Origin: Pseudanabaena sp. PCC 7367
Lineage (GTDB): Bacteria > Cyanobacteriota > Cyanobacteriia > Pseudanabaenales > Pseudanabaenaceae
Assembly: GCF_000317065.1 (NCBI RefSeq)
Contig: NC_019701.1
Span: forward strand, 2,490,001 to 2,554,000
Length of the DNA stretch: 64,000 nucleotides
Reading direction: 5' to 3'
The notes under the pieces were generated by a model that was given only the letters and a program-made list of their open reading frames with translations, searched no databases and was not told the DNA's origin. This document shows positions 21,341 to 25,046 of the stretch, one piece after another. Both the position numbers and the translations under genes were made by a program. Every line of letters begins with the position of its first letter. Within the stretch, counting starts at the first letter, position 1.

Positions 21341-21688
21341 CTAGATTATACCTAAAGCCCCCGCCAGCAGAACATTCATCCCCGCGATTAAACCAGGGTG
21401 AATCACGATCGCCCACAAGCCCGGCACATTGATTTTTTTACATAAAGGTAGCGCTAACCAACCGATTAGGATATTGGCGACCAAAAATACGATCGCCCAG
21501 ATCGCAATATGCGGACGTAGTCCGGCAAAAATCAACCAGGTCAAAAAATTGGCACCCATAACTAGCCCCATCCCCTGCAACCAGCCAGATGAGCCAATTA
21601 CAGGCATCTCGGGAGACATCCACACTAAACCGGCCCAAGTTAGAGCTGAAATTACGCCACAGACGATCGCGTCAATCACCAAAGCCAT
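21341..21688 (-). CDS. Small integral membrane protein (unknown)
   Basis: The 115-aa product consists almost entirely of four hydrophobic segments (about 5-25, 36-58, 62-80, 90-112) with short loops, so it is an inner or thylakoid membrane protein. I do not recognise the family. It lies 37 bp downstream of the SPOR-domain gene on the same strand and may be co-transcribed with the sigma-like/SPOR pair. Confidence 0.6.
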   Translation of the reverse strand: MALVIDAIVCGVISALTWAGLVWMSPEMPVIGSSGWLQGMGLVMGANFLTWLIFAGLRPHIAIWAIVFLVANILIGWLALPLCKKINVPGLWAIVIHPGLIAGMNVLLAGALGII

Positions 21689-21725
21689 ATTAAATTTAAT
21701 TATTTAAGCTGAGCAAACCTAATCA

Positions 21726-23597
21726 CTAGTCAAGCTGAGCCGGAATACCCTGGCGACGCAGTTCTTCAATACGTTGCTGAGCAGCACTAGCATCATTGTA
21801 TGCCCCTACCTGTAACTTACCATCACTCGGCCGCACATAGGCATTTTGATCAATCTGTTGGGTTTGATTGGCATAACTTTGATCAACCACCACCTTATGC
21901 ACAGGATTATTGACTGGCCTGGAAGTGCTAGGGGCAGGAGGAGCGATCGCCCTAGTTGGCGCTGGCGCAGGTGCGGGATTATTCGCCCTGGCTGATTCCG
22001 CCGATAGTAATGGCGCATATTGCACTGGAATATTATTCGCTGGTTCAGACACCGTGCGCGACTGGGCGGGATTAGAAACCCGATTCGGACTATTTTTGAG
22101 TTGCTGACTATATCGCCCTTCATTACTCTTTTCGATCGTGGCCGAGACAACACTGCCGCGATGTTCTAGCTGGGCAGGCTTGTTAGATTGATTAGCCGGG
22201 GCATTATTCGGCTTCTGGGTTGGTAAGGGCTGAATTGCGATCGGTTTGTTGCTGCGACTTGGCGAAGAATTTGGTGGAATAAAATTAGGTGAACTAGTAG
22301 CGGTCTCAATATTTTGAATCGGTGGAGTAGAAAGCTTAGGCGGCGCTTGGGGCGCTCTTTTGGCCACTGGTGCTGGTCGGGAATAATTTTGCTGGGGTCG
22401 AATTTTTACCGCTGGTTCCACATAGGAATCATAGCGCGGTGGAATTGCCGCCGGTGGATTATAGCTATTGTAATCGGGCAGATCGGTTACTGGAGGCAAA
22501 CTAGAAAGACTATCCAGGCTTGGTTCTAGTTCCGGTGGCAACGCTGAAACCGATGGCAGATCATTCAGGCTTTCGGTGATATCCGGTGAGATCGCCGTAA
22601 ACTTATCCAGGCTTTGGCCAGGAATACCATTATCCCCAGGCAAAGTGGCATAGGGCAGATCGGGGAAGATTTCCTCGTCGGCCAGCAAACTATCGATGTC
22701 ATGCTCAGCCCGCAGCGTAATATCAGCCTCGCGCTGCAAATCTCGCTGCGATTGCTGTTGATTTAGCATGTTGGCAAAATCCGATGGCCTGACCAATAAA
22801 TAGCCCACCACCGCACTGGCCATCAATAGCAAGAACATCGCCGCGATCCCCAGGGGGCTGGTGATAGTGAACTGTGCTTCCTCTTCTTCTGGGGCTACCG
22901 GTGGCACAGGTGCATCCTCTGGAGCGTAGGGCGCAGTATTGTTATTGTCGTAGCCCTGATTAATTTCCTGTAGCAACTGCTCATCAATCAAGCTATTATT
23001 TGGCAAATTACTATTCGGCAGGCTGCCATTAGCATTTGCGTTGCTAGGATTGAGATTAACCTCAACTGTTTCCTGGTCATCATCACCATAGAACCTCGAA
23101 CCGATCTGAGTGGCCTCTGGATCAACCGTGTTAGGCATGATCGGCATGGTGGGTGGTTGATTGCTTTGAATACTAGGATTGCCATTACTATTCTGCGCGA
23201 TCCTGTGGCTGGCTCCAGCAGATGCGGCCATCTCCATTGGTAGGGGCAAATGATGACCATCTACCATTAGTTTTGGTGGTAGCTTGGGCTCGACAGGTGC
23301 AGCGGCCTTAGGATTGTCAACACCAGGTGTAATTGGCCGATCGCTGGCGATCGCATTGCGGACTTCTTCACTCATCGAAAGCTTGAGCGGTTGATAGGCA
23401 TTGAGGTAGGAAAAACTCTGTCCGTTGTCCTGCCAGTGATGATAGCGGCTTAGCTCATCTTCGAGCGTGGTATCCAGGCCAGTCAGCGCCGATTGCAACA
23501 TTTCTGATTGCGATAGCTCAGCTTTGGCGATCGCTTTGGATTCTGGCTGATTCGACTTGGCAGGACTCGCAGGACTCGCAGGACTAAGTGTATGCAT
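21726..23597 (-). CDS. Membrane-anchored SPOR-domain protein
   Basis: The 623-aa protein has a long Pro/Asn/Gln-rich N-terminal region, a single transmembrane helix (about residues 253-275, GIAAMFLLLMASAVVGYLLV), a long Pro/Ser-rich linker and a short C-terminal SPOR-like segment (KLQVGAYNDASAAQQRI to the end). SPOR domains bind denuded glycan in septal peptidoglycan, suggesting a role in division or wall maintenance. ATG 23597 has GAGG 9 nt upstream and follows the previous stop by 11 nt; an in-frame TTG at 23612 would overlap that stop (TTGA). Coupling to the sigma-like gene upstream is likely. Confidence 0.75.
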   Translation of the reverse strand: MHTLSPASPASPAKSNQPESKAIAKAELSQSEMLQSALTGLDTTLEDELSRYHHWQDNGQSFSYLNAYQPLKLSMSEEVRNAIASDRPITPGVDNPKAAAPVEPKLPPKLMVDGHHLPLPMEMAASAGASHRIAQNSNGNPSIQSNQPPTMPIMPNTVDPEATQIGSRFYGDDDQETVEVNLNPSNANANGSLPNSNLPNNSLIDEQLLQEINQGYDNNNTAPYAPEDAPVPPVAPEEEEAQFTITSPLGIAAMFLLLMASAVVGYLLVRPSDFANMLNQQQSQRDLQREADITLRAEHDIDSLLADEEIFPDLPYATLPGDNGIPGQSLDKFTAISPDITESLNDLPSVSALPPELEPSLDSLSSLPPVTDLPDYNSYNPPAAIPPRYDSYVEPAVKIRPQQNYSRPAPVAKRAPQAPPKLSTPPIQNIETATSSPNFIPPNSSPSRSNKPIAIQPLPTQKPNNAPANQSNKPAQLEHRGSVVSATIEKSNEGRYSQQLKNSPNRVSNPAQSRTVSEPANNIPVQYAPLLSAESARANNPAPAPAPTRAIAPPAPSTSRPVNNPVHKVVVDQSYANQTQQIDQNAYVRPSDGKLQVGAYNDASAAQQRIEELRRQGIPAQLD

Positions 23598-23608
23598 AGG
23601 AATGAACC

Positions 23609-24229
23609 TCAAGCGGTGATTAAATTCTGAGCTAGATAAATGTCTTGAATGTCGGCGGGCAGAGCCGATCCGAGCGCCTGATATGCCTGGGATAGTAAAT
23701 CTTGGACATCAGCGGCGGAAACGCTATCGCCCTCGGCTTGGAGGTAGGCGGCGATCCGGGTGGGGCTCCATTTAAACGTCTGGGAGAGCAGCAGCACCAG
23801 GCGCAAATCCCCCGACAACTGAGCCAGGGCTTGATTGAGATAGCACCAGAACACGGGTGGTGTATCGCTGAGGGAATATTGGATTTCTTCGACCGGGGGC
23901 AATTGACCGTGATTGATCATCATCGCGGTGACGTTGATCAACCAACTTTGCAGGGAAATTTTACTGGTGGCCGATCGCAAGGTGAGCGATCGCATTTCGT
24001 TAAAAATGTATTCCCAGGTTTTGACGAATAGATAGTCGGATTGGACGGGCGATCGGGTAGCTGTGGATACCAGCGTGTAGATCACCTGACCATAGCGACA
24101 AAAGATCGCCGCAAAATATTGGCCGCGTTCGGGATGGCGCTGAAACAAGGTCAGCAGTTCCTGATCACTTTTCTGGGAAAGTGCCTGAACGTTGGGGTCG
24201 TTGATTTCGGGAAGAGGTGGAAGTTGCAC
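23609..24229 (-). CDS. Sigma-factor-like protein
   Basis: The 206-aa product (GTG start) resembles small sigma-70 proteins: DQELLTLFQRHPERGQYFAA and an FCRYGQVIYTLVS segment correspond to region 2, and the C-terminal LLLSQTFKWSPTRIAAYL followed by VSAADVQDLLSQAYQALG to a region-4-like helix-turn-helix. Conservation of DNA-contact residues looks weak, so it may be a divergent ECF-type sigma factor or a degenerate regulator. It is directly followed by the membrane SPOR protein, a place often taken by anti-sigma factors. Confidence 0.65.
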   Translation of the reverse strand: MQLPPLPEINDPNVQALSQKSDQELLTLFQRHPERGQYFAAIFCRYGQVIYTLVSTATRSPVQSDYLFVKTWEYIFNEMRSLTLRSATSKISLQSWLINVTAMMINHGQLPPVEEIQYSLSDTPPVFWCYLNQALAQLSGDLRLVLLLSQTFKWSPTRIAAYLQAEGDSVSAADVQDLLSQAYQALGSALPADIQDIYLAQNLITA

Positions 24230-24779: not shown

Positions 24780-25046
24780 ATGGCCGAAACCTACTACGAA
24801 CTTACTACAGAAGAATTAATACGTTCTTGTCATGAGCTTACAGGCGCTGAGCAGGGGGTATACTTTTATCTTCAGGCTTCTTCAATTGAGGAATTAACCT
24901 TGAAGAGTATATCCGAAGATCTGAATTTCCATAAATCTACTGTGTCTAGGGCAATTAAGCAACTTAGGAATAAGGGATGGCTTAACGTATCTGTTGTTAG
25001 GGCTGGGACTTTGAGAATTGATCCATATCCTGAAAACAAGAATTAG
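24780..25046 (+). CDS. Small winged-helix DNA-binding protein
   Basis: The 88-aa protein has a helix-turn-helix, SISEDLNFHKSTVSRAIKQL (about residues 42-61), followed by a wing (GWLNVSVVRAGTLRI), the MarR/replication-protein type of winged helix. There is no ligand-binding domain. The gene lacks HIP1 motifs and is richer in AT than its neighbours, so horizontal origin is possible. It converges on the YvcK-like gene with a 35-bp gap. Target unknown. Confidence 0.7.
   Translation: MAETYYELTTEELIRSCHELTGAEQGVYFYLQASSIEELTLKSISEDLNFHKSTVSRAIKQLRNKGWLNVSVVRAGTLRIDPYPENKN

Follow-up and report, generated by a model that had tools for sequence, protein, structure and literature searches.

A conserved cyanobacterial protein with a modelled sigma fold, most likely no sigma factor, is paired with a SPOR membrane protein in two orders

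In the alphaproteobacterial general stress response, the sigma-like domain of PhyR has a sigma2 and sigma4 fold and does not act as a sigma factor; it binds the anti-sigma factor NepR (excerpts of PMC4598750 and PMC8999054). The first of these sources, again in excerpt, describes the region 2.2 helix of sigma factors as binding the beta' coiled-coil of RNA polymerase (PMC4598750). We analysed a locus of Pseudanabaena sp. PCC 7367 that recalls such systems, its sigma-like protein resembling PhyR in the sigma2 and sigma4 fold and SigmaE-RseA, AlgU-MucA and SigW-RsiW in fold, size and the membrane protein gene located downstream. We conclude that this conserved sigma-fold protein is most likely no sigma factor. 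No published report of the protein, or of its pairing with a SPOR protein, was found in the openly licensed literature.

The window, by which we mean the whole 64,000-nucleotide stretch analysed, carries three open reading frames on the minus strand at 21341-24229, just as the first-pass annotation had read them. The first (23609..24229, GTG start) encodes the sigma-like protein of 206 residues, with a modelled ECF-type sigma fold that lacks the usual core- and promoter-binding residues; the second (21726..23597) encodes a SPOR membrane protein of 623 residues and the third (21341..21688) a small multi-span membrane protein of 115 residues. Relatives of the sigma-like protein begin [M/V]QLPPLPE or similar in their alignment, and those of the SPOR protein share the start M[HQ]TLSP, i.e., the ATG at 23597. 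Counting the 623 residues from this conserved codon, and not from the TTG at 23612 given in the open reading frame list, reproduces the annotated gap of 11 nucleotides between the sigma-like stop and the SPOR start. Across the aligned family loci, identity to the window's orthologues is 68-77% for the sigma-like protein, 30-37% for the SPOR protein and 42-51% for the small membrane protein, conservation that speaks against a chance arrangement. The latter gave zero Pfam matches, and its hydropathy profile shows three to four hydrophobic stretches; of its earlier description as a four-helix protein, the multi-span character stands, while the exact number is unsettled. It had also been counted as part of the arrangement, a place that the genome search does not support, the protein having been detected in the window's family alone, in 2 of 194 genomes (at most 23 candidates were scored per genome; absence elsewhere is unproven).

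Divergent from the three-gene unit, at 24780-25046 on the plus strand, lies a gene for an 88-residue winged-helix protein with TrmB/HTH_36 matches above the Pfam cut-off. The HIP1 octamer GCGATCGC, known to abound in cyanobacteria, occurs 74 times in the whole window, against about one copy expected from uniform base composition.

Sequence searches with the sigma-like protein returned Sigma70_r4_2 below the Pfam cut-off (E 0.0071), and the region 2 domain was not detected by Pfam. None of 10 family members scanned reached the cut-off, the best E-value among 26 others being 1.7e-6. A search of PDB sequences with the family profile gave a chance row only; compared with the three ECF sigma factors of the own genome, the profile gave a weak match (probability 54) that yet covers both domains. 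The structural model, calculated from 26 family sequences, has a mean pLDDT of 89.7. The top Foldseek row against the PDB is AlgU (8z6g, E 5.4e-4), the sole row at or below 0.001, and the best 24 rows consist without exception of sigma chains or of F chains from initiation complexes; by their titles, 21 belong to entries of known ECF sigma factors. The sigma2-like domain (residues about 20-112; 23894..24172, minus strand) was superimposed by VIA-align onto 4nqw_A (Z 8.8, rmsd 2.4, 85 aligned) and 2map (Z 9.0, rmsd 2.7, 88 aligned), and the sigma4-like domain (residues about 126-192; 23654..23854, minus strand) by Foldseek onto 3hug_E (rmsd 0.7 over 60 columns, probability 1.00, E 0.43). VIA-align matches range over Z 8.0-9.1, rmsd 2.1-3.6 Å and 82-92 residues for sigma2 and over Z 7.1-8.7, rmsd 1.1-2.6 Å and 47-76 residues for sigma4, Z values of 7-10 being modest for a helical model and the tool warning of common helical arrangements. 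Each row listed is a sigma factor, a sigma-like domain or an initiation complex, the PhyR entries 3t0y and 9cb6 being among them, and the domain order agrees. Superpositions over the full length are poor (rmsd at least 9.7 Å), which makes a different arrangement of the two domains probable. As modelled, the protein appears to possess both the sigma2 and the sigma4 domain of ECF sigma factors; the region 2/4 fold on which the first-pass annotation had made its proposal depend is present in the model and in the PDB matches.

Residues Q406 and E407 of sigma70 matter for core binding. The alignment with ECF sigma factors took in 41 sigma-like members, drawn from 24 families; the control rows number 12 (10 distinct), nine from the 30 control loci that gave a usable open reading frame and three from the own genome. 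Region 2.2 mostly reads YLFAxTW in the members and DLxQ[DE]xF in the ECF sigma factors. The D, the Q and the following acidic residue of the core-binding DLxQ[DE] occur in 0 of the 41 members (40 have residues there, the partial L095 having a gap at the motif), against 11, 11 and 12 of the 12 control rows, respectively; Q followed by D or E is found in 11 of the 12 rows and in nine of the 10 distinct cyanobacterial ECF sigma factors. DLxQ is likewise absent from all nine sequences of a second taxonomic order, that of G177. There, L255 alone ends the motif with an acidic residue, and in six of the nine (L250-L255) the 2.2 helix is closer to that of sigma factors and terminates in R-E-[QE]-V-W-L-R-L-Y. 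In regions 2.3-2.4 the members have on average 0.7 basic residues and a net charge of −1.8, against 7-10 and +2 to +9 in the three own-genome ECF sigma factors that serve as controls here, the segment compared being shorter in the window protein (23 residues) than in the ECF sigma factors (32-40). In region 4.2, both the K/R and the R of the motif are retained in six of the 41 members, and the median net charge is −1 against +5 in the ECF controls, a control that is circular for this region as these were chosen by their region 4 motif, whereas their 2.2 score is not. Aligned with the three own-genome ECF sigma factors, the 4.2 helix-turn-helix also carries an insertion of about five residues (AEGDS, at 23723..23737 on the minus strand, with approximate borders), and the QAEGD columns hold five residues in 39 of the 41 members. 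Arg143, Trp154, Leu163, Asp193 and Tyr198 are identical in all 41, strong conservation that indicates that the gene is not decaying.

Judged from the alignment, the family appears to lack both the region 2.2 DLxQ[DE] and the basic promoter-recognition residues of regions 2.4 and 4.2; failing these two features, the protein is not filed here as an ECF sigma factor. The earlier proposal that a wall-sensing regulator controls a sigma factor becomes doubtful, since the protein is without the usual core- and promoter-binding determinants. A canonical ECF sigma factor with atypical contacts to core and DNA, for which the SPOR protein is the anti-sigma factor that keeps it at the membrane, would agree with the ECF-type fold of both modelled domains, with the membrane protein gene directly downstream in two orders and with the more sigma-like 2.2 helix of L250-L255. 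The missing DLxQ[DE] and the depleted basic residues of 2.4 and 4.2 speak against it, and we consider it quite improbable.

The SPOR protein consists of an N-terminal motif, LxxALxxLDxxLxxELxRYR, one membrane span, a proline-rich stretch and a C-terminal SPOR fold, an architecture which we take to be FtsN-type. The N-terminal motif, LQSALTGLDTTLEDELSRYHHWQ in the window protein (23430..23498, minus strand), is predicted to be helical, is kept in linked and unlinked orthologues and is a candidate docking site. Hydropathy shows one hydrophobic span at about residues 246-277, the best 19-residue window being at 22791..22847 (minus strand), so the protein is single-pass as annotated. The C-terminal 62 residues (SPOR domain at 21729..21914, minus strand) were modelled with strands and helices in the SPOR order and a pLDDT of 86.5, the second strand being two residues long. 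The first Foldseek row is the CwlC SPOR domain (1x60; probability 1.00, TM-score 0.73 on the query, E 0.059), with no row at or below 0.001, and the Pfam SPOR match is sub-threshold (E 0.016, 15.9 of 21 bits); on the model, the protein would have a C-terminal SPOR fold. A half or truncated SPOR domain, suspected from the 27 residues of the Pfam match, was dropped after inspection of the model and the orthologues. We assume that the N-terminus lies inside: a SPOR domain is expected on the outer side of the membrane, and export of so long an N-terminal part is improbable when no signal peptide precedes it. The charges flanking the span do not support this orientation, lysine and arginine being more numerous on the N-terminal side in just seven of 31 orthologues.

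No anti-sigma domain (ASD/ZAS, RseA/MucA or NepR-like) was found in the SPOR protein among Pfam and NCBIfam matches up to E 1, a sequence search that such domains can escape. The first-pass annotation had placed the SPOR gene at the anti-sigma position; neither this search nor the N-terminal motif, which is also kept where the genes are unlinked, bears that out. The result likewise counts against a canonical ECF sigma factor with the SPOR protein as its anti-sigma factor, and a plain sigma/anti-sigma pair, considered as a candidate, is weakened by the absent 2.2, 2.4 and 4.2 residues together with the lack of a detected anti-sigma domain.

With the window protein as query, 292 genomes sampled from across the phylum included 84 with a sigma-like match, 61 of them at 49-59% identity. 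The family profile (E at or below 0.001) found the protein in 106 of 386 sampled genomes and did not find it in those of families f20 and f6 listed in this search; nearly all matched genomes have one copy. A 2024 census of cyanobacterial sigma factors, as its excerpts state, required scores above the Pfam thresholds (PMC11119718). Since none of the 10 members scanned reaches the cut-off, the family would largely escape a census with that requirement, although some members may not (best E 1.7e-6). Beside the sigma-like gene, 23 of 40 loci (L065-L104; 14 of 24 families) have a divergent gene of about 200 codons without a Pfam match, and 12 of the 40 (nine families) a TPR gene downstream, one sequence of each having been scanned. 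The relative positions of these neighbours carry an offset at minus-strand loci, of which the pair-adjacency counts are free, and no function follows from them.

In the window's family (f1), the sigma-like gene is present in 36 of 38 genomes, G325 having the SPOR gene only and G302 neither. According to the position lists, a SPOR-model match follows it on the same strand, with nothing seen between, in 36 of 36 genomes from eight genera (a partial match only in G299, G293, G295 and G327), and the spacing is 10-13 nucleotides in 15 of the 22 loci L001-L022. In the second order the sigma-like gene is present in nine of nine genomes and a SPOR orthologue lies downstream on the same strand in eight, seven with gaps of 56-171 nucleotides and the eighth (L256) with a gap of 517 nucleotides and a listed SPOR reading frame that begins only at the span. 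At the ninth locus (L251, L293; G333), a transposase-like reading frame comes right after the sigma-like gene and is followed by the contig end. Outside f1, the pair is adjacent in one of 44 loci (L023-L027, of which L025 has only 572 nucleotides downstream, and 39 of L065-L104), that one being L084 of G177 itself; at L096, the SPOR gene is 3.6 kb away on the opposite strand. The conserved gene order expected by the first-pass annotation is thus found in the window's family and in the second order and breaks down elsewhere. Because the region 2/4 fold is modelled and the order is kept in two orders, neither a missing fold nor a lack of conservation can be held against that annotation outright. 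The unlinked genes at 43 of the 44 loci are a further point against a canonical ECF sigma factor.

Between the window and the G177 locus, the sigma-like gene alone is in common by blastp (1e-5), the SPOR relation requiring a profile. In the tree of the sigma-like protein, f1 is nested with support 1.0, and the second-order sequences are basal and not monophyletic (deep node 0.75, for a short protein); f1 and the order of G177 are not sisters. This topology points to a pair that is ancestral with loss in most lineages or that arose on two occasions; a single recent transfer that carried both genes from one order to the other is at odds with the tree.

Adjacency in two orders suggests, at the level of gene order, that the sigma-like and SPOR proteins work together. 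They may alternatively be co-transcribed neighbours with separate jobs, their adjacency in two orders being an ancestral leftover, and indeed both genes occur apart in other lineages, e.g., in G011, G022 and G060. The unit persists while its neighbours turn over, however: when the 11-37 kb part of the window is compared with two Pseudanabaena loci, the three unit genes alone are in common, plus an antisense shadow reading frame. Together with the 10-13 nucleotide spacing in f1, this makes separate jobs unlikely.

Sixteen loci with SPOR matches outside f1 were examined, and 15 have the same kind of SPOR protein, L148 having a different one. A PspA/Vipp1-type gene, a label that agrees with the positions of PF04012, comes after the SPOR orthologue at 12 of the 16 (L135-L150; also L157, L160, L163 and L164). 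Before it, a divergent gene read as DciA is found in 13 of the 16; this label, like menB, thioredoxin, aminotransferase and transposase, was read from sequence and not from scans, PF05258 having been searched in the own genome alone. The N-terminal motif is still kept at loci distant from the sigma-like gene, implying that it serves something there too, and its partner may be a protein other than the sigma-like one. Among genomes with a SPOR match and without a sigma-like gene, we inspected G118, G131 (twice), G005, G080, G095, G097, G105, G133, G147 and G075, leaving out G244. In G118 (by eye) and G131 the SPOR orthologue includes the motif, the sigma-like gene being undetected; the matches in six f6 genomes, the f3 genome and G075 and the second match in G131 lack the motif.

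This gene order suggests another reading, in which both proteins take part in envelope or thylakoid membrane maintenance around PspA/Vipp1 and the sigma fold is structural or regulatory, with no role in transcription. In five of 48 genomes (of the 84), from four of 19 families, no more than 25 kb separate the sigma-like gene itself from a PspA-family match; drawing one genome per family, 2.75 linkages are seen against about 0.3 expected, a test chosen after seeing two cases and hence a lead only. Besides this post hoc character, the distance of the PspA-family matches in two genomes that have the pair, 530 kb in the window's genome and at least 400 kb in G177, tells against membrane maintenance around PspA/Vipp1, which we regard as rather unlikely. 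No paper linking Vipp1 with a SPOR protein through this gene order turned up in a search of the openly licensed literature.

The reading we prefer, held tentatively and with somewhat more doubt than confidence, is that of a membrane-tethered sigma-fold mimic that has the single-span SPOR protein as its partner and acts by anti-sigma titration. It draws on the modelled fold, the absent determinants and the conserved pairing of the genes, from which binding between the two proteins, the orientation of the SPOR protein and the titration step are inferred. The ECF-derived protein would no longer be a promoter-reading sigma subunit and would serve as a protein-interaction module instead. The conserved helix motif of the SPOR protein, ahead of the membrane span, would dock the mimic at the membrane, and the SPOR domain, if extracytoplasmic, would link the complex to the state of the peptidoglycan. 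The mimic would bind a sigma-handling protein, in the simplest case titrating an anti-sigma factor in a PhyR-like manner. Against this mimic stand the pair's separation at 43 of the 44 loci outside f1, the two genomes (G118 and G131) with the SPOR motif only, the persistence of the helix motif beside PspA/Vipp1 and the flanking charges. The circular 4.2 control, the acidic residue of L255 and the modest VIA-align Z values also weigh against it. A wider proposal, an ancestral cyanobacterial family of SPOR-tethered sigma mimics, paired in two orders, that relays the state of peptidoglycan or division to transcription by partner switching, is speculative and would probably not hold as a whole. 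If the protein is a mimic, sigma mimicry would extend beyond PhyR, and cyanobacteria would have a candidate link from envelope to transcription; even if it is not, the SPOR-PspA-Vipp1 gene order points to a possible partner in membrane maintenance.

Compared with the systems described so far, the cyanobacterial pair shares individual features with each. Its C-terminal SPOR-like fold, following a proline-rich stretch and one span, is that of SPOR peptidoglycan-binding proteins such as CwlC (1x60), from which the cyanobacterial family differs in having its own N-terminal motif and in its linkage, either with a sigma-fold protein or with PspA/Vipp1. In SigmaE-RseA, AlgU-MucA and SigW-RsiW the residues for core and promoter binding are not missing as they are here, and the partner here bears a SPOR domain, with no anti-sigma domain detected. 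The window protein would at most work like a sigma mimic and is not a PhyR, since it has no receiver domain by Pfam scan and its 206 residues end soon after sigma4; it is also cyanobacterial, with no NepR known, and, unlike PhyR, is paired with a SPOR membrane protein.
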